NCBI GenBank assembly: GCA_014281115.1
Contig: JACONQ010000004.1
Coordinates: 3,410,001 to 3,474,000 of the forward strand
DNA: 64,000 nucleotides
Origin: Laburnicola sp. R22_1
Taxonomy: Eukaryota; Ascomycota; Dothideomycetes; Pleosporales; Didymosphaeriaceae
Direction: 5' to 3'
In this document: piece by piece, positions 1 to 53,678 of the stretch
Layout: each line of letters starts with the position of its first letter
How positions within the stretch are numbered: position 1 is the stretch's first letter
The notes under the pieces: generated by a model
Database searches by the model: none
What the model was told of the DNA's origin: nothing
What the model saw: only the letters and a program-made list of their open reading frames with translations
Translations under genes and position numbers: made by a program

Positions 1-1994
1 ACAATTAACAAGCGCCTGCTCCTTAAGGAGAGTAAAATTCTTTAATTTAGATGGGTTATCGCGTCGTGTAGTTGTTCTATTACGTCTTTAATTAAGCGTT
101 CTGCGATTAACGTTATACAGCCCTGCTGCTGCTCGCTCTGTAAGATTTAGGTCTTATTTAATAGCTCTAATAGCAATAAGTAACTGAGCTTTATTAGATA
201 GCTTAGAAGACATAGTAGGTGGTTGTATTATAATGGTATTATTGGTGATGGTGGGGTCTTGGCAAAGGTGACGCGCTTACTAGTGTGGGTCACTCGCTGG
301 TAAACCACGTTAAAGCTAATATTTATACTAAATAGATACCTAGTTACTAAACTAATAAATTAGTTGCTATAAAACCTGCCTTTTTCTATCTACTCTAGTA
401 TTAATATACTATAAGAGTATATAATAAGTATATTAGGCGCAATATATATTAACTATATCTAATAAGAAAAAGCTAAACCTCTTTAGTGCTCTTAAAACTT
501 TAGGCTAAATATCTAGCATAGGAGTAAATAGCTAGTAATAGTCTTACACTATTTCTTAAGCGGCTACTACGCACTATAAATAATAGCTCTAGATTTTATT
601 ATACACCTTAATTTTATTAGCCTATACTATTCTTAAGCCTATATCTATAATAGTATATAGTATATTCTATCACTCTTCTATAGTTAATATATTATATACC
701 TAAGTCTAGGCGTTTGTAATTAGATGCTATAGTAGTTTTATATATCTCTTAATATATAGAGTTAGCTTTATTAGCTTAATAGGCCTCTTTTCTATTAGTA
801 ACCTTATAATTACTATTATAGAAACAGCTCCCACAATAATAGACTCTTCTTATAAGAATAGTTTAGGCCTTTATACTACCCTCTACTGAGATATTTTTAT
901 AGCTAATATTATTAATAGTGTTAATACTATTAGACTAGACTTACTTCTTAGTAAGCTTAGACTAATAGTAGGTAAATCTATTATAAAATTAGGTAGCGCC
1001 TAAGCCTTGTGTAAATAATCACTTATAGATTTTATGGTAATATAGTTCCTTATATAATAGTTTCTAATATAACTAGAAAGTTACTAATGTATCTTCTTAT
1101 TTATCTATACTATATTATTAAGATAGTTATACTATAGACGCTGTCTTTCTCTTCTTTCTAAGTATTTTTAAGTACTAGTATAGATTAAAGTTATATAGTT
1201 ATAAGTATTAAGCAACCTACACCCTATTATAAGCTAGTCCTACTATATAAATTTAGTTTTTTTTAACTTATAAAAGACTCTAATTACCCTTACTTACTAC
1301 TAGACCTAAGCAACTAGTATTAATATTTAATAGGCGCGTGCTAACTACCCACATAGTAAAAATATTAGTAACTTATAGTAAATTTACTTAGCTATATTAA
1401 TATACTTATAGTCTTATACTATCCCCTCTAGCTTATAATATTAGATTACATACACCTTGCCTATTTATTTTCTAGACTCTATAGTAGTGTAGGTAGTATA
1501 TTATAAATAGTAGTGCACTATTAGTCTATATGCACTATATATTCTAATAGCACTCTTTATAGGAATAATTATAGTTTTAATAAGAGTGCATCTAGAATAG
1601 CGCAGTATTAGGTATCTAATACTCTTAGTTATAAGTACTATATACGTGCACTACTCCTACGCTAGCTAAAAATAGGTTAATATTACTATCTAGCTATTAA
1701 CTAATATTATAAAATATCTTATTATATTAGCTAGCGCATTTATTTTAAGAATAGCTTAGCTTATTTTACTATTATATTAAAGTTAATCTTTTATTAACTT
1801 ACTAGTCTATCTAGTTAAGGTGTATTTTAGCTGCGTTTATATATTAATACTAGCTTAATTTTCTATTTAGCTATTTATTATATTTATAGTAAGCTACTTA
1901 TTCTATATGCTTATTAGTATAATAATCTCTATCTATTCTTTTATAAAAATATACTAGTAGGTATAATATATATAACTTAATAATATGTATATTA

Positions 1995-2285
1995 TAGATT
2001 CTATAGTCGCATTGTTTATTTAGTGTTAATTACCTTTTTTAATACATTTTTTTAATTTAAGCCTGCGTAGGTTGGGATAGAAAGACCGCTCTAGTACAGC
2101 GCCTAAAAATACAGTCTACTAGTCTCCACTAACATAATAATAGTTTATAAGAATAGTTTATAAACTGTGTACTCGCCTCCTAATTATCTATAAGCGCTCT
2201 AATGCCTATTAAGTTACTTAAAGTGTACATAGAAAACTAAGCTCTATTATTACTATTATTAGCAATTGCGCTATATTTGTACGCC
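1995..2285 (+). repeat. Dispersed repeat, left copy (second copy at right edge)
   Basis: The segment from the TAGTCGCATT motif to the ATTATTACTATTATTAGCAA motif is repeated near the right end of the window, in the same orientation. Most differences are transitions. The right copy carries an extra 195 bp insertion (63,701-63,895) that is absent here, so this copy shows the empty site. The family is not recognised; part of a retrotransposon is possible. Confidence 0.7.
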
Positions 2286-2884
2286 GCTACGCGGCACACT
2301 TATATAACGCGCTTACTAGCTAACTATCTAACGCTATAACTATAAGGATCTAACGCATTTATATAACACTTTCCTCTCCTAGCAACTTATTAATAAGCAC
2401 CTTCTCTTACCCCTTAACCTTGCCCTTTATTACTGCTATCTTAACCTATAGTAATATAAGAAACTATAGTGGAAGCCCTACGCGTCTATTACAGCGCCTA
2501 TAGTTACTAATCTATTGCTAGCCTAACTAGTACACTAGAACCGCCTTATATAGAGTAAGGAATATCTTCTACTTTAACCTATTAATAATCTTCTAAATAG
2601 AGTAGTATTCTAGTGTAGACTTAGTGTCTTTAGACAGATAGATTAGAGCGTACTTATAATATATAAGCTTCTATCTAGTATATATTACTTATAAGTAGCA
2701 TAAATCTACTAATATAATAGCTATTACTTCTAGCAATTTTTAGAAATAATAGTAAAGAGAGATAGTTATAGTGTTATACTAGTTATAGCGCTAGTGCTAT
2801 CTTATATCTTCCCTACTCTAAACTGTGGTATAGTAATATAGTCTTATGCATAGTTTTGTATATAGATTTTTTTTAGTTAGAGTA

Positions 2885-3030
2885 GGCGCGCTAAGCTCGC
2901 TAAGCTCGCTTATAACGCGCTAACCCTTTTTATTAACACCTTAAAACGCTTTTCTGTGTATATAATAGCAGGAGGTATATCTGCTATTATTGTAATATTT
3001 TTATTAGAAACCCCTTAGTCGCAAAAAAAA
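2885..3030 (+). mobile_element. Short retroposon-like insertion, family A, copy 1
   Basis: This 146 bp segment starts GGCGCGCTAAGCTCG and ends in a run of eight A. A second copy lies inverted at 11,872-12,015 and is flanked there by a 16 bp duplication. Here the flanks share only a degraded TATAGATT block. An A-tail and target duplication suggest a SINE, or the 5'-truncated tail of a LINE. No A or B box of a Pol III promoter was recognised. Confidence 0.5.
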
Positions 3031-4258
3031 TCCTATAGATTCTACTAACTACTGGTACTTGCTAACTTGTAAAGCTAATATATTCTTACACTAGCCTATA
3101 GTAGCCTAGTTATATTACATCCTTAACTAAAATTATCTATAGTTGTCTATAATTAGCTTTTTAACGCATTAACTTATTTTATATAATATAGTATAGAATA
3201 GAAATATAGTAGGCATAGTTATAAAGTTATTTATTGCTAAGCCTATAGCTACTATATTTTTATAGTCTTATGCCTACTTATTTTAGAGGTCTGCGCTACT
3301 ATAGAATCTAAATATAGTTCTATTATTTTAACGCATACTACTACTACTTTAGCGCCTCTATATAGTATAGATTATATATCCTTTAGTGCAAATATAGACT
3401 TATCTAAAAGCCTATTATTATAGTCTTACTTTTTCTATTTGCTACTTTGTTATATTATTGTATTTATTTTATTAACTTTAAGAAGTTTTAGTTGTACTAT
3501 TTTACAATTTCTAAAAGATAGTTTATTACTTACTTAGATATAAATATTTTAGGGTATATATCTACTACTTTATATACTATTATAGCTGCCCTATCTTTCT
3601 CTAAGTTTATTTAGATTAGCTTACCTAGGACCTTATTCCTAGTTAGAATAGCCTCTACCTTCTAGTATATAATATAATACTCTTTATCTAATATATTAAG
3701 AATACTTTATATAGTATCTTTAGCTATATATATAAGATATAGTGTATATATATATTTAAAGTCTAGTTCTATATAAGGTTGCATTTTAGTATAGAATTAT
3801 TATAGTATTAGCGCATTTACTAGCTAAAAACCTACTCTATTATCTTAGTATTTTTATTTTATATTAGCTATTAGTGCAAACTATAGTTACTATAGATACG
3901 CAAAAATATTATAGTAAATTACTATAATAGTATTTAAACTATAGTAACTACTATTCTACTAAAGTAGATATATAAGCTAAATATTAACAAGTGTCTTAGA
4001 AGTGCTATAACGATGCCTAGGTTACTATACTTATTCTATAGCTATAAGATATATATTATAGGCAGATTATAAAATATAATAAATTTCTAACTAAGAAGAC
4101 TAGAGCCATAACTTTTATTATTATTACTTATAACTTAGAAAAAGTTTTTGTTACTACTATTAAAGTTGCTATTACTATTAATATAGCCTTTAGTGTTTAC
4201 ATAGCTATAGCTATTAGTATAACTAGAGCTATAACTATTAATAGGGGGCATAATATTA

Positions 4259-5026
4259 CAGTAGAGTGACACAAGAAAAGCGTCTAGTAAAAAGATACCT
4301 TTTTAAAAGTTATATAACTAGGTGAGTTTTAATACTATGTAAATAAAAAGTATAGGGTTTTAAGGAAAAGGTTTAGCAAATTTAGTATAGAAGGTTAGTA
4401 AGAGCTTAGTAATCAGCGCTAACTAGAGGTATCTTAGTAAAGTTAAGAGAATTTTTCTTAAAACATTGACTCTATATAACTTTTTTCTACGTAGATAAAA
4501 TTCTATAACTTATATATATTATAGTTTAGCCTATAAGGACTATATAACTTAATTTTTATTATAGGTTTATTCATAGAAATAATAATTATAAGGAAAAAGA
4601 TAAAAATTAATTAAAATTAAACAATTAGATAGAACTAGTAAATAATATATAACTAGTACTTAGTATACCATCCTTTAGCCTCTATAACGTTATTATAGCG
4701 CTTAGGCAAAGATAGTATACAATAATCTATAGCCTCCTGTGGAATTAAATCCCACTCCTCTTGTATAGCTCTTTTAAAGGCTTCTACACTAGATTTACTA
4801 GTGCCAAAGCCTAAAGAAGCCCTATTTCTTTTTCCTAGCCTATCTTTCAATAGACTCCAAACGTTTTCTATAAGATTTAAGTCTGGTGAATGGGGTGGAT
4901 GCCCAAAAACAAAGACTTTATTCCTAGAAAACCACCTTTTTACCTATAGAGTTCCGTGGATCTTCGAATTATCCTGTTGAAATTTCCAGCCTAGTTATGA
5001 TTTGTATAAAGAATAATATTATAAAA

Positions 5027-5064
<38 letters not shown>

Positions 5065-6383
5065 TAAAAGAAAAAAGAAAAAAGAAGAAAAAGGGTACTT
5101 TACTTCCCTCATTTTAAAAGAGGTATTAAGATAGGATTTAAACACTCCTATATATATCTAGTGTTATTAAAGGTCCTAGTTTTAATAGGGTCCCTTAAAA
5201 ACACTAGTTTAGAACGTCCTCCTATCCAAATACAGTCCCAGACTAAGATAAAAATATCTCGCGCTTTTAGTGAATTAGTACTAGCTTAAAATAAAAGATA
5301 TAAAAAAAGTAAAATAGACTAATTATAGATAAAAAAGGGCTCTATAATTCTAGAATTTAAAAGAAATTAATAACTTACTAGTTGTTCGGTTTTTGCGCTG
5401 TTCAGGCCCAATTTTCGATTTTCCCCTTTTTCTTATATATTCTTGCCTATTACCATGCCCCCTTTGGATAGTAGACTCGTCAAAAAATATAACGTTAGCA
5501 AAGTTAATATTTTCTAGCTCCTTAACTATCTCTTTAGCCCAGAATTCTCTTCTTTTAGCTCTTTCTTTAGTTCAATAGGCCTTTTTCTTAGAGACGTTAA
5601 AAGGATAGTCTTCTCCTTTTAAAACTCTCTGTAACGTCCTCTTAGTAAAGCCAAAACTATTCTCTTCTAATAGCCTCTTATTTGTCTTCTTAGGGCTTTT
5701 AGTTAAATCCCTATTAATAACTCTTTTCTTCCTAGAAGTAACCTTAGTTACTCTCCCTTGTTTTACTCCTTTTAATAAGTTATCTCCCTTATTTTTCTTA
5801 TTAATACGTCTAATAGCAGTCTTAATAGATTGTAGAGGCTTATTAAGGGTAGTAGCAATAGTAGAATTAGAAGTATTTGCTTTTTTAAGTAAAAAAACTT
5901 GACTTTCGAGTTTTGACAATTCTGGCTCCATTCGAGGAAATACAAAAGAGAAAATTTACTAGACAAAAGATATTATATTATACTATAATCTTAGTAATAA
6001 ATCACGTGATTTAATTAATTTTTAAAATCACGTAATTTTTTAACCTTAAATAATTTCTTAATTAAGTTATATAAGTACTCCAAAATTTTGCTTACATAAT
6101 CTACACTAGGCCTAGAATAGCTAGTAAAAACATTAGCCTAGTAGCATACTGAATAAAAAAATCATAACGCCTTAAAAATTGACTTTTTTGAAACACTAAG
6201 TTTAGAGATAGATACCTTAAGGACCCTGCTTAGTAAGCACGTAACTAGTACCTAATCTTAATCTCCTATATTTCCTCTTTAAAACCGTATACTTTTTATT
6301 TCCATAGTATTAAAACACACTTAGTTATATAACTTTTAAAAAGGTATCTTTTCACTAGACGCTTTTTTTGTGTCACCCTACTG
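4259..6383 (-). mobile_element. Tc1/mariner-type DNA transposon with terminal inverted repeats
   Basis: The element is 2125 bp long and flanked on both sides by the TA expected for this superfamily (4257-4258 and 6384-6385). The left end CAGTAGAGTGACACAAGAAA is matched in inverted orientation on the right as CAGTAGGGTGACACAAAAAA. The inverted similarity runs about 100 bp inward with scattered differences. Remnants of a minus-strand transposase lie inside (4653-5931). The element inserted next to a 99 bp tandem repeat that begins at 6386. Its interior is AT-rich and its reading frame is broken, so it is not active. Confidence 0.85.
4653..5931 (-). pseudogene. Broken Tc1/mariner-family transposase
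   Basis: The N-terminal part (5931 to 5572) reads as about 119 residues with the helix-turn-helix character of Tc1 DNA-binding domains. Further on, translation across 5400-5520 gives a VIFFDEST-like block, which matches the first catalytic Asp region. Near 4870-4900 a PHSPDLNLIENVW block matches the last catalytic motif. The end (4850-4653) carries WDLIPQEAIDYCI and VIEAKGWYTKY, typical of the C-terminus of this family. Stops and frame changes separate the pieces. Family membership is secure from these motifs; the exact clade was not determined. Confidence 0.8.
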
Positions 6384-6385
6384 TA

Positions 6386-6682
6386 CTATCTAAGAGTAGG
6401 GCACCTAAAGCGTAATTTAGGTTTATAGTTTAAGGTAGCTACAAAGTAAGTTAAGGAAAGGGTAGGTTATAGTAATTTATTATACTATCTAAGAGTAGGG
6501 CACCTAAAGTGCAACTTAGGTTTATAGTCTAAGGTAGCTATAAAGTAAGTTAAGAAAAGAGTAGGTTATAATAATTTATTATACTGTCTAAAAGTAGGGT
6601 ATCTAAAGCGTAATATAGGTTAGTAGTCTAAGGTAACTATAAAAAAGCTAAGAGAAGAGTATACTATAGTAATTTACTATAG
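6386..6682 (+). repeat. Three tandem copies of a 99 bp unit
   Basis: Units begin at 6386, 6485 and 6584, each with a CTRTCTAARAGTAGGG-like start and a constant 99 bp spacing. The first two copies are close; the third is more diverged, with mostly transition differences. The array starts directly after the TA duplication of the mariner element, so the transposon sits at the array's edge. Confidence 0.85.
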
Positions 6683-6738
6683 TAATGTGTAATAGCTATA
6701 GAATAAAGTAGCCTATAATAAAGATAGATAGTTAACTA

Positions 6739-6850
6739 CACTAGTCTAATTACACTAGCCTAATTACACTAGCCTAATTACACTAGCCTAATTACACTAG
6801 CCTAATTACACTAGCCTAATTACACTAGCCTAATTACACTAGCCTAATTA
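6739..6850 (+). repeat. Eight tandem copies of a 14 bp unit
   Basis: The unit CACTAGCCTAATTA occurs eight times without gaps over 112 bp. Only the first copy differs, with one T for C. This homogeneity contrasts with the decayed surroundings and suggests that expansion came after most of the RIP-like mutation. Confidence 0.95.
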
Positions 6851-9516
6851 CTACTAAGCTAAAGTTACGCAATAACTAATAGCTATAGATAATAATAACC
6901 TAGAACTAATTCCTCTATACTACGTAATTATATATATATACCCTTCTTTATATTTACACTATATATACTATTTTAATTATAGCTATAGCTATAGTAAATA
7001 ACCTACCTAATCTAAAATAGTATAAGGAGACTACGTTGAAATACCTACAATAAATGCTAAAGAATATTATAATAAGAGGTCTTTAGCTTATTAAATAGAA
7101 GTTAGGTATTTAGTAAGAAATAGTAAACTATATATTAAAAGAAATAGACTATAACCTAGTCTTACTTAATTTTATATTACTAATAGACAACTATAAAGTT
7201 GTATATAATAAAGTTATAAGGAATATATAAATAGATAACTACTTTAAGATATTTTAAAAACTTCTAAACTCTATACTAAAAGATAAGGGGCAAGCTAAAG
7301 AGTAGTGTAGAGCAATAGAGCTTAGTCTCTAGACAGCCGTACAGTAGATAAAAAAGGCTCCTATAGGTGCTATAGTTAAGTTAGTATCTAGGGCAGAATA
7401 AGAAGTTAGAGTATAGAGTTATCACAACTTAATATATCTTAAAGAGGCTCTACTACCTTAGTAGTAAGCACTAATATAGCTAGCGCAACTAAAATATAAA
7501 GGCTTTATATTAATAATACTCTAGCTACTAGTATATAAAGCACAAACTACGCATTTAGGAAGAATAGAATTAATATTTAGGTTACTACTTTAAAGAAAAA
7601 ATATTTTTAATCTGCTTCTTATTAATTATCTAATATAAATATATGCTAATAATAACTAGTTGCAAAGATAGGGAGGTAGGCCTAATATTAGTTACACTTA
7701 ACACGCTTAAGAATATTATATAAGAGAACCTTCTAGTGTTCTAGACAAAATTAGATATATTTAACCTATAGGCACCTAGAACCTAGTAACTAATAAAGAT
7801 TAGAATAACTAGCGTTCTTTATATAGAGGTGCAATTATTAGTAGCAACTAGAGTAATAAAGTAGAATATTATAGCGGCGCACTCTTATATTATAATAAAG
7901 GATATACAGACTTCTAATATACTTACCCTATACTATAGCGCTAATAAATATACTAGATATCTAGCTACTAGTACTATATATATCTCTTTATAAATAATAT
8001 AGTATAGCTAATATAAACTCTAATCCTAGTATATTATAAATATAAAGAAATAAGAACTAAAAGTCTCTAAACTAAACTTAGTATGTGTGGCATTATATTA
8101 ACTACCTAGGGGTAGCACGACAAAGGCTTTCATCTTAAATAACATGACAAAAAAAGCAGTGCCCCCTGCTTAGTAATTAAAAAGAGCGTAAAAAAGGTGG
8201 TGATTATAAAAAAAAACTCAAAACTTAGTATAAATTATACTAAACTAATAGAAAATAAATCCTACACCTATATTATACACTAGTAATAATAGCTTAGATA
8301 GCAAATTAGATAACTAAAGGAGGACACTACTATTATAATAGTTTAATAAAAATATCTCTCTATATAGTAGTAGTTTAGATAGCACCCTACTAGAAATAAC
8401 TAAAGAGAGGTAATAATAGCAGTATAAAGAAAAGAGTATCTCTCTAGATAATAGTAGCTTAGACAGCCCCTTACTAGCTAGAGAGAGGTAGTAATAGTAG
8501 TATAAAGAGAAGAGTAGCCCCTAGTAAAGTTATAATTTTCATAGTAACCTATCCTAGAGTAATTACGCTTTGTTATAATCTAATAGCATAAAGAGAACCT
8601 ACTTATTATTACTATATAATTTGCCTATAACTCTATTACCTTATTGCAGCACAACACTTATTAATAAGAACAAAGTATAGAAGATTATTAAAGCTAATAG
8701 GGTTAATATATTTAAAGAAGGAGGACCTTAAAATACTTAATATAGTAAGTAGTTACTATAATAACAGCTAGATAAAATTAAGCGTGTGCTATAGTAAGTT
8801 ACTATAACTCTATATAATACTAAAATCTTACTAATAATTATCTATAGAGCAAATGTAGCTATTAACGCCAAACTTAGCTAGGCACGCACTTATATAACAA
8901 AATAGTTATACACTATAATAGCGTAAATGTTTATACTTAACTAGGCTATACTTATAATATTATATAATATAATTCTATTCTCTATAATATAAGCCCTTAC
9001 CCTAGACTCTAGAATACTTTCCTACTAGTAGATAGTATTAGCTAAGATAGTTATATAGAGCGAGCGATATAGTAGTAGCAGTAATAGGTCTAGTTCTAGT
9101 GTTAGAAAGTCCTACTCTTATCTAGTAAGGTTAATTATAAGATACTAAATTATAAAATAAAGAAAGATTATTAACCTTACGTAAGAATAAGAAATAGAGA
9201 AGCCCTACCTACCTAAAAGAATAGCAGGTCTATGCCTAAGCTAGGTCTAATACCCACTACTACGTCCTTGCTTAGCTAATTTATAGACATATAACTACTA
9301 AATACTAATAAAATATAGCTAGATTATAATAGTTGTAAACACTAATAGTAACTAGAAAAATATTATCTTAAGCCTACTATACTAAGCGCAGATAGCAAAA
9401 TTTCCTAAACTATTATTTAGACTTGCTATTAAATATAAACTAATAAGATGTATTATTGTAAGAGATTACTCAAGGCATCAAAGGTTAAAATTAAGAAGTT
9501 AATTTTACTAAGATAT
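6851..9516. repeat. AT-rich, RIP-like repeat block
   Basis: AT-rich decayed DNA with no intact reading frame. It probably derives from a retroelement, but no motif was readable enough to name it. One short insertion with target duplication (8085-8220) is annotated separately. I see no RNA gene here. Confidence 0.6.
8085..8220 (+). mobile_element. Short insertion, family B, copy 1, with 11 bp target duplication
   Basis: The 136 bp segment is flanked on both sides by AAACTTAGTAT (8074-8084 and 8221-8231). Its core, from about 8098 to 8186 (CTACCTAGGGGTAGCACG followed by AAAGGCTTTCATC), recurs at 11,624-11,710. The right end is A-rich. Direct flanking repeats plus an A-rich end suggest a small retroposon. 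Copy 2 lacks the last 34 bp. Confidence 0.6.
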
Positions 9517-9652
9517 CGAGGTGGCGTATAAAGACTGTTAACAGCTGCCTTATATACCCACACGTAGCCGAGGCGCTAATGCCTAATCGGGTAAGGTTCC
9601 GGGGCTCGGCGGAACCTTCCGCCGGGCGCGCCGCACCTCAGGAATCCCTAAC
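9517..9652 (-). other. GC-rich island inside the AT-rich block
   Basis: About 135 bp, with a strongly GC-rich core at 9580-9640, escape the surrounding decay. The segment contains an inverted repeat (GGTTCC ... GGAACC and CCGCCGGGCG) and is bounded by GAGGTGGCG on the left and CGCACCTC on the right. Read on the minus strand it contains TATATAAG, which resembles a core promoter. It may be the terminal region of a DNA transposon, possibly hAT-like because of the AGGGATTCC-type end, or a small MITE. The identity is not established. Confidence 0.4.
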
Positions 9653-11029
9653 AATTATAAAAAACTAGCTTAAAGAGTAATATACGCAAAAGCTTAATAA
9701 CTATATATATATATATAGAAAGAAAGTGGTAATAAATTTATAGCACACTTAATAACTTTTAACCACTATTATAAATATAGCTAGTTAACCTAACACTATC
9801 CTAGGCGTTAATAGACAAAGAGTTAGCTAGTATTTACAGAACCTTATAGCATAACAATATAGCTAAAAGAGATAAAGACTATTATAAACTATAGTAGATA
9901 TATAATATAGCGTGTTGTACACTATAAGATTTGCAATAACTTATAATAATAATAGTATTAAAATATCTAGCCTAGACACTAAAGCTATTCTAACTAATAT
10001 AACAAAGTAGATAGTAAGTCTAAAGGCTTATTATAAACTACTTTTTACACTATATTACCTAAATATCTTAGCAACTAAGATATATAGAAAAATCTTATAA
10101 TTTTAAAAGCGTAAGAATGTATAAGTCTATACTTTAACACCTTACCTTTAAGTATAGCCTATAAATAGCAGCTATAGTAAATACTAGTATAAGAGGGGTA
10201 AACTCTTCCCTATAGCTATATAAAACAATACTATCTACCCTTAATATAATTTAAGAAGGTAGTATATAAGCTACTTATAGAGTAAGAAAGATAGAAAAAA
10301 AGTATACTATACTTAAAGACTATAAGTTTCTTAAATATAGTAAGGTTATAGCAAATATTATATAAATAATATTAATTAAACGCAATAAACATATATATAA
10401 GGGCTAGATAGAAAGCCTCTACTAAAAATAGCAGATATTAAATTTATCTAAAAGTATATTATTATTAAATAGAACTAGATAAGTAGAGATATAATATAAA
10501 ATGTTGCTTAGTTAGTAAATAAAGAAAAAGAGCGTCTAGAGTATAAGGGAAGAGTAGAATAATTAATATTAGATATTAAAATTTTACTATAACCTATATA
10601 TTACAGGTATAGCACTATTACTTATTAAGTTCTATAATAAGTATAGTATAGATATATATTCTAACTAACTATAAAGTATTTCTAGCAACCTTAAAGTGTT
10701 GCTCTTATTTACTAATTTTAGCAAGACTATTAAGGGTAATTTAAAGTAGGCATATATGCGATAGTATATTTAGAAGATTAAGGTGTTAAGAAAGAGCGCG
10801 CGTTTAGGGCTTTACTCTAATAGGAAGCTACGCTAAAATAAGATTATAATTAAGATAAAGATACTAATAATTATATTAGTTAATACTATTCTATATATAT
10901 TATAAATTATAATAAGTTACTATACTAATAGCTATAGGGTGTATAGAAGCTCCTTAAGAGTTAAGTAGATATTACTAAGAAGTTTTACACTATTATCTAG
11001 ATTATTTAGAATAAGATATATATTGTACT

Positions 11030-11290
11030 TATCTATAGTAGAATAAGCTTTCCTAAGCAAAAGATAATTATTAACGCATTTAATAGCGTTAATAACTTAT
11101 TAAGAATTATTATAATAACTATAGACCTATATACTAAGGGTATTAACCTTATAGATACAAACTATATTATTATAGAATCGCTAGCTTGCAAAATTAAGAA
11201 GCTTAAATAGTTTATCTAATAGCTAGTCTAGCTAGAGCAAAAGGAGTTAGTTGTAAACGCGCACTTACTCTATAATAAATATAGCTAGAT
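11030..11290 (+). pseudogene. Relic of a helicase C-terminal domain (RecQ-like)
   Basis: Translation on the plus strand gives an AFNSVNNLLRIII block, a T-D-L-Y-x-K-G-I-N-L-I-D-T block, then KLK-stop-FI-stop-stop-L. These line up with helicase motif V (ATDxxGxGIDxPD) and motif VI (QRxGRAGR) if the stops are RIP-type changes of Gln or Arg codons. RecQ-family helicases of this kind are common in fungal subtelomeres. The upstream ATPase motifs were not recognisable. The call rests on pattern reading only. Confidence 0.35.
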
Positions 11291-11613
11291 TAATATAAGA
11301 AGGGTAATAAAGCGTAAGTAGTTATTAAAGAAAGTAGATATAGTAATTATAAAGAATATAATAGGTATAGAGGAATATAAATATTCTAATAAAAAAGTAC
11401 TCTAGACTTAGAGTTAGCGTATTACAAAGTGTTAAGATTATATAAGACTAGAGTAAAGGCTAGTAAATACACCTTAAAATATAAAAAATAAAAAGAATAA
11501 TTAACTAAAGAAACTTAAATATATACGTAGTTAGAGTAAATTATAACTATTACTAAAACGTAGTAAGTTATAGTAATTTAGAATTAATATAAAGCGTAGT
11601 AAAAGAAGTTATA

Positions 11614-11710
11614 TAGCGTTAAATTAACTACCTAGGGGTAGCACGATAAAGGCTTTCATCTCAAATAACATGACAAAAAAGCAGAGCCCCTACTTAGTAA
11701 TTAAAAAGAG
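11614..11710 (+). mobile_element. Short insertion, family B, copy 2, with 12 bp target duplication
   Basis: This 97 bp segment is flanked by AAAGAAGTTATA on both sides (11,602-11,613 and 11,711-11,722). It matches the core of 8085-8220, with a few transitions and small gaps. The insertion splits one unit of the local array. Confidence 0.6.
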
Positions 11711-11871
11711 AAAGAAGTTATAACTAGTACTATAATATAGTAAGTTATAGTAATTTAGAATTAAACGTATACACATTTAAATAAAATTATAACTATTACT
11801 AAGACGTAGTAAGTTATAGTAATTTAGAATTAATATAGAGCGTAGTAGAAAAAGTTATAACTAGTACTATA

Positions 11872-12015
11872 GTTTTTTTACGACTAAGAGATTTCTAATA
11901 AAATATTATAATAATAGTAGATATTCCTTCTACTATTATATATATAGAAAAGCTTTTAAAGTGTTAATAAAAAGAGTTAGCGCGTTATAAGCGAGCTTAA
12001 CGAGCTTAGCACGCC
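11872..12015 (-). mobile_element. Short retroposon-like insertion, family A, copy 2, with 16 bp target duplication
   Basis: The segment is 144 bp and is flanked by TATAACTAGTACTATA on both sides (11,856-11,871 and 12,016-12,031). On the minus strand it starts GGCGTGCTAAGCTCG and ends in a run of A, like copy 1 at 2885-3030. The long target duplication and A-tail point to LINE-type retroposition. Confidence 0.65.
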
Positions 12016-46658: not shown

Positions 46659-48790
46659 CCGTGGGTCACCACCTGGTGCACGGCCCCACCTGGTGCACGG
46701 TTTCCAGATGCCCACACCCACAACTTTTGCAGCTGTAGAGTCGCATATATATTGTATTATCGCGAGATTTTTTAGTGGAGGGCTTTTAAGGACCTATTTG
46801 ATTGATTGGTAACGATAAACTACGTGCGATACCTCTGTGGGAGGCGTACTTTGCGGGTGCGCGTGGCAGGGCCGGGTGTAGGCACCACATCAACTACAGA
46901 TGATATATCCACACCAACATCCTCTGTCTCCTCAGCGACTTGAGGAGGTGGTGCAAAGGCCTTTGACGGCGTCTATTACCCTTTTGGAGAATTGTATATC
47001 TTGTTGGAGTTGCTTTTTGGCTTCGCGCGCGATCCTAGCTTCTTCGCGCTGCACGGCCTTCTCGCGCTGTTCTTGAAGGCGTATTTCTTTGGCCACCTCT
47101 CTCATGCGCTGCCTCTCTTCAAGCATGGTAGCCTTCTCCTGCTTCTGCTGCTCCCTACGCTTGATCTTCTCGGACTTCTGTTGTTGTAGTAGCTGCTCGT
47201 CGGCATCCTTTTGTGCTTGGCGATCGCGGGCGTCCTTGACTTTGGATGGCGACTAGAATATAGCTCCACTATTATACTCCTGCGGTGCCTTAAGTAATAG
47301 AGGCCTGCCACGTTGACGGCGCTTCTTCTTATTGACAAAGGCCCCTCTGAGTCGCTCGTTTTCATGCTGGAGGAGCTGTTTTTGTACAGCCATCACGTGA
47401 ATCGTCTGGCTTAGCTGTTGGGAGCGTCGATCGTAGATATCCTCCACTACCTGGCGCAGTAATCGCTCAATCTTTCTCCAATCTGAAGCGCTGAGTACGG
47501 AAGTAGTACTATCGCTTGATGAGGGCCTCTCAGTCTCCTCTATTTTAAACTTCTTAAGTATAGCCTCTGGGTCTAACGGCGAAAGCCCTGTGACTTGAAA
47601 AGCCGTTAAGATCGTCTTTTCCTTAAACGTTGTATGCCAAGCCTTATAGAACAAGCGGAAGAAGTCTCTTTTTGTAATCGCGGAGATGCCCTGGCAGCTA
47701 TACATGAACTTGGAGAGCTCGTTTGAGTAGGCAGTTGATAGAGGCTTGAAAAGGCAGACGTCGAGCGGCTGCAAGGTGTGGGTAGCGTGGGGAGGATAGA
47801 TGGCCAGAAGAATCCGATTGTCGTCGCAAAACTTGATAAACTCCATCGATATATGTGAGCCATGGCCGTTAAGGATGAGTAGACGATATGATTGTCTTGC
47901 CTTTGCTTTTGTTTCGCGATTGAACACCTGTTCAAGCCATGCGAGCCCTAGCTTGTTGTTGGTCCATCCACTGGGCGATGAGGCGAAGAAGGTTTTGTGC
48001 TCTGCAGGGTCGAAATCTTGAAGCTATGAGTCTTGTATCTTGCTAGAAACAGCCTAATAAATCAGCGCAGGCGTGAGATAGCTGCCGTCGGCGCAAATAC
48101 AGGCTATCGTAGTTATCCACTCCCTGTTGCCGTCCTGGAGTGCTTGTTTCACGCCTCCGTGATTATATCGATGGCGGGAGAACACGCGCTTCATTTTTGA
48201 CAGCACACCAATTAAGAAGCCCTTCTTATCCATATTGTAGATATTGCGAGCCTCGATATCGTACTGAGTTATCTTCTGGTCTAGGAGCTTAAAATATAGG
48301 GCGTATTTGAAGGCAGAGTCAGCTCTGTGGCGTGTGGAATCGATGCCGGATGCCTATCGAGATACAAGCTTAATGTGATGCCGCGCAATAAAGCGATCAA
48401 CCCAGTTTTTTCCTGGCTCTTTTCCTGCTATTTCTGCTGCGAAATTCCGTATCATCTCCCTTGTAGGTGGTAGCCCTCGTACACAGAGCTTATCAATATA
48501 TTGTACGAGCTCAGTTTCCTGTGTAGAGTTGAGAAGGCGCATATTATCGACTTTCTCCGCATAGCTGCCGATAACCCCGCGGTGACGCTTCGACAGCAAC
48601 GTTCGATCAACACCGTACTTTTTCGCAGTCTGAGCATAATTAGGCTTCTCTCCAAGCTTTAGCGATTTTAACGACTCTAGGGCAGCCTCCATTGGGTGTA
48701 TATTGGTGGTGTAAAGCGATTCTGAAAGTGCGGGAGATTTGGTGTTGGCCGTGCACGAGGTGGGGCCGTGCACGAGGTGGTGACCCACGG
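46659..48790 (-). mobile_element. Pogo/Fot-type DNA transposon, RIP-damaged
   Basis: The element is 2132 bp with TA on both sides (46,657-46,658 and 48,791-48,792). Inverted termini of about 42 bp begin CCGTGGGTCACCACCT and differ by a few G/C changes between the ends. Each terminus itself contains a doubled CACCTSGTGCACGG unit separated by CCC. The interior carries a minus-strand transposase with several stops. It lies between the BTB pseudogene and the tRNA gene. Confidence 0.9.
46820..48692 (-). pseudogene. Pogo-family transposase with several RIP-type stops
   Basis: The N-terminus (from 48,692) has the psq/CENP-B-like helix-turn-helix of pogo transposases. The DDE core reads YNMDKKGFLIG with the first Asp, then LILNGHGSH where the second catalytic Asp is replaced by Asn (codon 47,868-47,870), then HTLQPLDVCLF with the third Asp. 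In-frame stops lie at 48,354, 48,054, 48,024 and 47,253, all TAG. A frame change near 46,970 precedes the true end at 46,820. Every stop and the Asp-to-Asn change fit C-to-T at CpA or its complement. The protein is inactive. Confidence 0.88.
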
Positions 48791-48958
48791 TAAGTTGACC
48801 CATTGAGATTCCGCCACACTCGCCTGGTCTACCCCGCTTTGTCGAATTTGAAGCCTACCAGCCCGCAAAACGTGCTATTCTTGCTTATGGAATTTGCAGG
48901 TACAGATATATGCATCTTACTTTTGAATTTTTGATCAACTTGTAGGAAGACGATCCGA

Positions 48959-49098
48959 GCTACTATGGCCGAGTGTACGTCAGCACCTGTCCTTTGTCTA
49001 TTACTTTCACTAACATTCCCTAGGGTCTAAGGCGGTAGATTTAAGAAATTAAAGCTCTACTGGGGAAACCCGCGTGAGTTCGAACCTCACTGGTAGCA
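48959..49098 (+). tRNA. tRNA-Leu(UAA) with anticodon-loop intron and a spliceosomal-type intron in the D-loop
   Basis: The acceptor stem GCTACTA (48,959-48,965) pairs with TGGTAGC (49,091-49,097), followed by discriminator A. The T arm is GTGAG-TTCGAAC-CTCAC. The anticodon stem GTAGA/TCTAC holds loop TTTAAG with anticodon TAA. A short insert of about ten bases (AAATTAAAGC region) sits at the canonical position after base 37 and can pair with the anticodon. The long variable arm GGGG-AAA-CCC fits leucine. Eight T (49,101-49,108) form a Pol III terminator. The D-loop is split after GAGT by 49 bp (48,975-49,023), annotated separately; without it the D arm GCC...GGC and the invariant GG are complete. 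Box B is intact; box A loses only its last base match. Whether the gene is functional is unknown. Confidence 0.85.
48975..49023 (+). other. 49 bp spliceosomal-type intron inside the tRNA D-loop
   Basis: The insert begins GTACGT, has CACTAAC as a branch-site match at 49,009-49,015, and ends CCCTAG. Size, donor, branch site and spacing match the protein-gene introns in this window; GTACGT is also the donor in the RNA14, PDAP1-like, PalB and oxysterol-binding genes. It lies exactly between base 17 and the invariant G18-G19. Self-removal or tRNA-endonuclease features are not apparent. Confidence 0.7.
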
Positions 49099-49100
49099 AC

Positions 49101-49108
49101 TTTTTTTT
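49101..49108 (+). terminator. Pol III terminator of the tRNA-Leu gene
   Basis: Eight consecutive T start two bases after the discriminator base. This supports a transcribed tRNA gene and not a random fragment. Confidence 0.8.
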
Positions 49109-51827: not shown

Positions 51828-53678
51828 ACGTGTTTACAAGCGTGCCGTCAGTACAAGCGAGCCGTCAACCCCACCAACTTTCCGTAACGCGCGATAAGCA
51901 AACTACAATGCCTCAACCAACTACAACTCAATTGCCCTATAACGAAGGAGATATCTTCCTTGCTATCTCAGCTATTAATAAAAATCAGATTCAGAGCGAA
52001 AATTGCGCTGCCTTAACGTTTAACGTCCCTCGATCAACGCTGCGCGACCGACGCGCCGGAATTGCTGCGCGACGCGATTACCAGCCCAAATTAAAGAAGC
52101 TTACCAAGCTAGAAGAGGAGGTGATTGTTGAGCAAATACTTGACCTAGATTCGCGAGGCTTTGCGCCCACTCTAGGTGCTGTACGAGATATGGCGAATAA
52201 GCTGCTCACTGAGCGCAGCGCAGGCCACGTTGGCTAGCAGTGGCCTAGGAACTTTGTTAAGCGAACAGACAGCCTCACAACGCGATTTAATCGACCCTAC
52301 GATCGACAGCGAGCCCTCTGCGAGGACCCGACGGTTATACAGGCCTGGTTTGAGCTAGTAGCACGTACAAAGGCCACCTACGGTATCTGCGACGAGGATA
52401 CCTTCAACTTCGACGAGACTGGCTTTCTGATGGGTAAAATATCCTCCCAGCTAGTCGTTACTGGCTCAGAGAGGCGTGGCCGGCCAAAAGCGATCCAGCC
52501 AGGCAATCGTGAGTGGGTGACGGCGATCCACGGAATCAACGCTGCTGGGTGGGCAATCCCGCCCTTTATCATCTTCGCTGGCCAGTACCACCTCTCTGCC
52601 TGGTACGAGGGCGACGATATACCAGGTGACTGGGCTATTGGTCTCAGCGACAATGGCTGGACTACGAACGAGCTTGGTGTTGCCTGGCTACGGCATTTTA
52701 TCAAGCATACAGTAGAGCGTAGAGTGGGCGCGCGTCAGCTACTGATACTTGACGGCCATGAGAGTCACAACTCGCTCGAATTCCAGGAGATCTGCAAGAA
52801 GAACAAGATCTACACTCTCTGTATGCCGCCACATTCGTCACACCTTCTGCAACCGCTTGACGTTGGCTGTTTCTCGCCGTTGAAGCGGGCGTACGGGCGC
52901 CAGGTCGAGGGCCTGATACGCGACCACATCAACCATATCACTAAGCTTGAGTTCCTACCAGCCTTCCGCGCCGCCTACGACCAGTCAATTACAAAGGAGA
53001 ATATCTGCGCAAGCTTTCGAGGCGCTGGGCTAGTCCCACACAATCTAGAGGCGGTGATATTAAAGCTTGATGTGAAGCTTCGTACGCCGTCGCCAGCAGC
53101 CCTACTAGAGACCCTATGGGAGTCTGCAACACCAAGCAACGCGCGCGAGCTAGGCGCTCAGTCAACTCTAGTTCGTGAGCGGATCCAAAGGCATCAAGGA
53201 TCCTCTCCTACATCAGTTATCCAGTCGCTTGATCGGCTTACAAGAGGGGCTAAGAGAATGGCGCATTTGATGGTGATTATGCGCGATAAGATAGCTAGTC
53301 TACGAAGGGCAAATAAGGCAGCCACAACGCGTAAACAGCGCAAAAAGAAGCGGATCCAGAAGCGAGGCACTCTATCAAAGGCAGAAGGAGAGGATATTAT
53401 TGCTTAGAAGGCTGTTGAGCAGCAACTAGAGGGAGAAACGCGGTATAGCCAGGCGCGGTCAGGTGCGAGCCGGCAGGCTTCAGCGCGCTGCACGCGCTGC
53501 AGGGAGCCTGGGCACAACTCACGTACGTGCAAGAAGGCTTCTATAGATACTGCTTGATTTAGGAAAGCTATTATATTAATAGAATTTTGAAGTGTTGTTA
53601 AACTACGTGGCTTTTTAAGTGTAGAAAGTTGGTAGGGTTGACGGCTCGCTTGTACTGACGGCACGCTTGTAAACACGT
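51828..53678 (+). mobile_element. Pogo/Fot-type DNA transposon, nearly intact
   Basis: The 1851 bp element is bounded by TA on both sides (51,826-51,827 and 53,679-53,680). The termini are about 56 bp long, begin ACGTGTTTACAAGCGTGCCG, and differ at a single base between the ends. This indicates recent insertion. The sequence is GC-balanced, unlike the decayed elements of the flanking AT-rich blocks. It encodes a transposase with only two in-frame stops. Confidence 0.92.
51908..53557 (+). pseudogene. Pogo-family transposase with two RIP-type stops
   Basis: The frame runs from ATG 51,908 to TGA 53,557 in one phase with TAG codons at 52,235 and 53,405. The N-terminal HTH and CENP-B-like part (RSTLRDRRAGIAARRDYQPK, LGAVRDMANKLL) is followed by a complete DDE core: FNFDETGF, LILDGHESH and SHLLQPLDVGCF keep all three acidic residues. 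The last 50 residues, beyond the second stop, contain a CCHC zinc knuckle (CTRCREPGHNSRTC). Both stops fit CAG to TAG at CpA. The first separates the DNA-binding part from the catalytic part. It probably cannot work as it stands. Confidence 0.9.

Follow-up and report, generated by a model that had tools for sequence, protein, structure and literature searches.

Spliceosomal introns in non-coding genes are a known kind of feature, and the tRNA is a host in which none is expected. In fungi, GT-AG introns with an RCTRAY branch site lie within the small structured RNAs U6 snRNA and U3 snoRNA, the branch site being expected 6-36 nt before the acceptor and U3 paralogues sometimes lacking the intron; according to this 2017 source, no small structured RNAs besides U3 and U6 are known to be interrupted often (PMC5832005). 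In ascomycete lichens, short spliceosomal introns occur in the rDNA, also outside the Pol II genes, and yeast removed an introduced lichen intron of this type from a Pol I rRNA transcript, which is a precedent, in the portion of the paper available, for the spliceosome acting on non-Pol II RNA (PMC8527467). Introns in the D, anticodon and T arms of tRNA genes, sometimes several per gene, are described from Cyanidioschyzon merolae, nucleomorphs and archaea; those of C. merolae and archaea rest on a bulge-helix-bulge and the tRNA splicing endonuclease, and the available sections leave the mechanism in nucleomorphs open (PMC3978253, PMC4090602). The accessible text of the 2014 paper treats nucleomorphs and the red alga as exceptions to the view of such genes as pseudogenes, and the word stem 'spliceosom' is absent from it (PMC4090602). 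Eukaryotic tRNA genes are said, in the part available, to be limited to one intron (PMC8450103). In common teaching, the introns of tRNA and those of mRNA belong to different worlds, each served by its own machinery.

The tRNA-Leu(UAA) gene described here differs from the fungal U6 and U3 systems in that the host is a tRNA, from the lichen rDNA in being a Pol III/tRNA rather than a Pol I/rRNA case, and from C. merolae and archaea in having spliceosomal signals, with no bulge-helix-bulge motif found. Like other eukaryotic tRNA genes it has a canonical intron at 37/38 (9 nt), whereas its 49-nt insert lies at another site with other signals. No paper on spliceosomal introns in tRNA genes was found among the matches listed, judged by title and abstract opening in a search that covered few subscription papers, and such introns in nuclear tRNA genes seem to be undescribed as far as the literature searched goes.

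The window is the whole 64-kb stretch of DNA that was analysed. Positions 48959-49098 were read as a class II tRNA-Leu gene with anticodon TAA, and the features of the locus are as follows.

48906..48910, + strand: TATA-like element at -53 relative to the start of the mature tRNA, probable upstream promoter for Pol III
48934..48937, + strand: ATCA element, -25, probable Pol III start region
48959..48974, + strand: exon 1, acceptor strand to D-loop base 16/17, with most of box A (sequence reading, ARAGORN)
48975..49023, + strand: 49-bp spliceosomal-type intron GTACGT..TAG in the D-loop, between base 16/17 and G18 (sequence reading, removal tests)
49008..49014, + strand: branch-like site CACTAAC with its branch A at 49013, 10 nt ahead of the end of the intron
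49024..49045, + strand: exon 2, G18-G19 to base 37, anticodon TAA at 49042-49044 (sequence reading, ARAGORN)
49046..49054, + strand: canonical 9-nt intron at 37/38 (ARAGORN)
49055..49098, + strand: exon 3, variable arm, T arm, acceptor strand and A73 (sequence reading, ARAGORN)
49077..49087, + strand: box B, AGTTCGAACCT (sequence reading, pattern search)
49101..49108, + strand: T8 run, Pol III terminator (sequence reading)

The acceptor end of the D-loop insert is CCCTAG, and the predicted spliced junction joins GCCGAGT to GGTCTAAGG. The coordinates of the original prediction, and the insert, donor, branch-like site, acceptor, anticodon, 37/38 intron and T8 run that it describes, were all reproduced.

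No tRNA was found in the unspliced window by ARAGORN or by an Rfam gathering scan. After removal of the insert, ARAGORN returned tRNA-Leu(taa) with a score of 108.9 and an intact cloverleaf. The window holds one instance of the motif GTACGT-CTAAC-TAG, where 0.09 would be expected, and 9 of 100 shuffles hold one as well. Stronger evidence than this count comes from a scan of the 64 kb on both strands, in which 104 candidate introns of spliceosomal type were removed one at a time: an ARAGORN tRNA resulted in a single case, the Leu(UAA) insert. A control that left the candidates in place and covered the + strand gave 0 tRNAs.

The nuclear tRNA genes were surveyed in the 63.9-Mb genome (26 contigs) with an RF00005 scan and box-B-plus-terminator patterns, after which the loci were read. 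The working list holds 71 genes, of which 61 are without a body insert, nine, Leu(UAA) among them, have a GT-AG insert in either the D or the T arm, and one, an Asn gene, has another kind of insert. The list is incomplete, being drawn from the first of 714 and of 128 pattern places and from 63 scored candidates among 2627 for RF00005, and in it no Tyr, Trp or Ser(UGA) gene was found. ARAGORN detected a tRNA in all 61 plain genes and an anticodon-loop intron in 49 of them; its isotype differed from the assigned one in six (L041, L049, L050, L110, L128 and L162, with L049 uncertain) because the program places the intron freely. The interrupted genes, with intron positions numbered by eye, and the interrupted U6 gene are as follows.

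Leu(UAA), window: D-loop, before G18
Leu(UAG), L117 1-391: D-loop, same site as Leu(UAA), intron sequence unlike
Ile(AAU), two genes, L057 and L058: D-stem, 11/12
Arg(UCU), L098: D-loop, 18/19
Pro(UGG), L104: T arm, 52/53
Phe(GAA), L129: T arm, 53/54
His(GUG), two genes, L056 and L144: T arm, 53/54
U6 snRNA, L164, G000:C9, exon 1 from 1677728, + strand: full-length gene with two GT-AG introns (65 and 51 nt)

The Leu genes with anticodons CAA, CAG and AAG that were read lack the D-loop intron. An introner-like element would be expected in many similar copies; no similar copy of the Leu(UAA) intron sequence was found within the window or the other loci read. The predicted spliced junctions are TTAGC joined to TCAGTTGG for Ile and CTGTG joined to TTCGATCC for the intron-bearing copy of Phe. 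An assembly error at the insert, which had been named as a way in which the finding could fail, is very unlikely because the inserts of nine tRNA loci obey common rules.

Intron placement was examined in two ways. First, GT-AG stretches were removed blindly at 18 loci. All nine genes then gave a tRNA of the isotype given above, and in each of them the listed intron ranked highest, without a rival in six and level with a neighbouring D-loop donor in three. In an exhaustive test, every deletion of 40-85 nt was scored with ARAGORN at 12 loci, and the GT-AG product was best for 5/9 genes: the two Ile genes outright, Phe and one His to within one base, and Arg as one among 40 equal products. In the two Leu genes, in Pro and in the second His the top score went to a different deletion, 1 to 2.5 points above the GT-AG product, since loops tolerate length changes; the GT-AG boundaries are indicated sharply by stems and loosely by loops. 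The Pro gene was read by ARAGORN in a Gln-like form when unspliced (104.7), below the score of the spliced Pro form (113.5).

Several further loci were read beside these genes. The Asn gene (L059) has a 50-bp T-arm insert that starts with GTAGGT and ends with AT, and is one base off L016 in the variable loop, as judged by eye; it was considered as a tenth GT-AG case and rejected on its GT..AT ends, and is perhaps a decayed gene. Four loci (L092, L102, L108 and L148) have tRNA-like 3' ends with terminators and 5' parts that no single removal resolves well, and are perhaps genes with two inserts or remnants. Three others (L134, L142 and L158) gave no tRNA after any GT-AG removal.

The U6 introns read GTACGT...GCTAAC...CAG and GTTCGT...ACTAAC...CAG. 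A BLAST search with spliced U6 gave two hits, the full gene and, some 300 bp away, a truncated copy in inverted orientation; L164 was the only full-length U6 found by BLAST. Introns in fungal U6 genes are reportedly known (Canzler, 2016, is said to have treated them). U6 is needed for splicing, and the organism therefore very probably already splices a Pol III transcript.

The nine tRNA and two U6 introns were compared as one set of 11. All have GT-AG ends with a YAG acceptor, and all have the branch A 10-14 nt from the intron end. The 5' splice site is GTRNGT in 9/11, Leu(UAA) among them, the exceptions being the second His (GTAAGG) and U6 intron 2 (GTTCGT); the branch site is RCTRAY in 10/11, the exception being the second Ile, with TCTAAC at 12 nt. 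The inserts are 49-77 nt long, a length by which group I and group II introns were ruled out. They resemble nine coding introns of the window (median 53 nt, range 41-95, branch distance 7-13) in length and branch distance; these nine came from a script that joins ORFs and has YAG and RCTRAY among its own requirements. TTTT occurs in none of the 11 introns; shuffles were also free of it in 30% of trials and one of the nine coding introns contains it, which allows no conclusion on selection against internal Pol III terminators.

The reading that we favour, and hold to be highly probable, is that of a functional tRNA-Leu(UAA) gene, transcribed by Pol III and carrying a U2-type spliceosomal intron in the D-loop, and three other explanations were weighed against it. 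A dead tRNA gene with an insertion, its function supplied by other genes, would accord with the view that eukaryotic D- and T-arm insertions mostly mark pseudogenes, as the available part of one source has it (PMC4090602); the Asn gene may be such a case, and insert-free copies were found for four of the seven isoacceptors (His L009, Phe L128, Pro L131 and Ile L162). The Leu(UAA) gene itself, however, has intact stems, upstream elements and a terminator. BLAST with the spliced Leu(UAA) sequence returned one locus, the window gene, and with spliced Arg(UCU) one locus, interrupted, 'single locus' being not absolute in either case, since scoring in the genome searches is confined to the best candidates. 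A search of this type did pick up a third Ile gene, 82% alike and without the D-stem intron, and is therefore able to see relatives. The earlier suggestion that other intact Leu(UAA) copies might carry all expression thus finds no such copy by BLAST. In the standard code UUA needs the anticodon UAA and AGA needs UCU, and both codons are in use: among stop-to-stop ORFs of the window, UUA occurs 6 times in IF-2, 6 in Sec7, 7 in the calpain-like frame and 0 in two Argonaute frames, and AGA 22, 10 and 4 times, and 1 and 0 in the Argonaute frames. With single interrupted loci and these codons in use, a working tRNA would be required from both genes unless a diverged second gene was missed. The paralogues also argue against dead genes, in a comparison that covers Ile and His, Leu(UAA) having no paralogue here. 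The exons of the two intron-bearing Ile genes are identical (74/74) with introns 54% and flanks 44-52% alike, and those of the two His genes are identical (71/71) with introns 75% and flanks 42-55% alike; such identity beside diverged introns and flanks points to selection on the spliced product or to exon-only conversion, and from these two pairs the spliced product seems to be under selection. The Phe copy without the T-arm intron (L128) is exactly the exon sequence predicted for the spliced intron-bearing copy. A dead gene is accordingly considered very unlikely. An intron cut by the tRNA splicing endonuclease, at an ectopic site as in C. merolae and archaea, is very improbable. Bulge-helix-bulge introns have a 4-bp central helix flanked by 3-nt bulges at both junctions, and with this geometry no central helix was found at the splice junctions of any of the nine introns in three registers (-1, 0 and +1); the GT, branch site and YAG would moreover have to be coincidence in nine genes. 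What speaks for the endonuclease is that D- and T-arm introns removed without the spliceosome exist elsewhere and that 53/54 is a known archaeal intron position, both from the available parts of the sources (PMC4090602, PMC3978253).

The remaining explanation, a Pol II transcript that crosses the gene, is spliced as an mRNA and then yields the tRNA, had been raised in the original prediction. Spliceosomal splicing is normally tied to Pol II, and a second intron-like segment had been pointed out upstream at 48900-48945. This segment is without an RCTRAY branch site and overlaps the TATA-like and ATCA elements, a pair found at set distances upstream of 42 of the 71 nuclear tRNA genes against 2% of random 75-mers from the window. 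The full pair precedes 38/61 plain genes and 4/9 interrupted genes, namely Leu(UAA), Leu(UAG), Phe and one of the two His genes. Arg lacks both elements, Pro and the remaining His gene carry a single one, and for the two Ile genes the scan covered 34 nt only. The pair is probably a Pol III upstream promoter, and with the segment better read in this way Pol II read-through is not needed. The internal boxes are also kept in the DNA. The Leu introns begin with GT, so that box A keeps TGGCCGAGTG; in the T-arm introns the terminal AG falls where box B needs G53, directly before TTCGA or GTTCGA, and box B remains AGTTCGA or GGTTCGA. Given the upstream elements and the preserved boxes, Pol III transcription is the simple reading for Leu(UAA), as the sequence suggests. 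The T8 run after the gene, and introns of the same kind in U6, a Pol III gene by type, likewise count against the crossing Pol II transcript, which is judged very unlikely. Of the original prediction, the core, a spliceosomal-type intron in the D-loop, has good support, and the pattern holds across nine tRNA genes and U6; the Pol II crossing was not borne out.

For the working Pol III gene, we infer spliceosomal removal and the following order of steps from sequence. Pol III would start near the upstream TATA/ATCA elements, use box B together with a box A largely preserved by the first bases (GT) of the intron, and stop at the T8 run. The spliceosome would excise the 49-nt intron from an uncapped pre-tRNA, restoring the D arm; RNase P and RNase Z would trim the ends, and the tRNA endonuclease would then remove the 9-nt intron at 37/38. 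The same processing would apply to at least eight other tRNA genes and to U6 snRNA. It is likely, with somewhat less assurance than for the Leu(UAA) gene alone, that introns have spread through the Pol III genes of this organism (at least 9 of 71 tRNA genes, and U6), that they sit where splice sites and promoter boxes overlap, that decoding of UUA and AGA depends on the spliceosome and that the spliceosome needs its own product for U6. If so, splicing capacity would be linked to the decoding of particular codons, and genes for essential tRNAs whose single transcript needs both machines would demonstrate that central RNAs of translation can be served by the spliceosome. Such genes would offer a natural test of the need of the spliceosome for Pol II or a cap, and a hint at how introns enter non-coding genes. 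They also carry a warning, as tRNA finders miss them; ARAGORN and the Rfam gathering scan both missed Leu(UAA).

Two transposase frames flank the Leu(UAA) gene, one at 47253-48854 (- strand; DDE_1, with HTH_Tnp_Tc5 at 48354-48854), about 0.1 kb upstream, and one at 52238-53407 (+ strand), about 3.1 kb downstream. Positions 1-12000 of the window form an AT-rich block (27% GC against 49-56% in the rest), which we take to be of the type left by repeat-induced point mutation. Mitochondrial-type tRNA genes were seen in a nuclear contig (G000:C24, about 1269204-1288732) and are probably inserted mitochondrial DNA. A lichen origin was considered and rejected on protein similarity: among the best 120 of 7995 matches, the nearest named relatives of the window IF-2 protein are from Kalmusia sp. 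(88%), Lentithecium (84%) and Paraphaeosphaeria (82-83%), all presumably Pleosporales.
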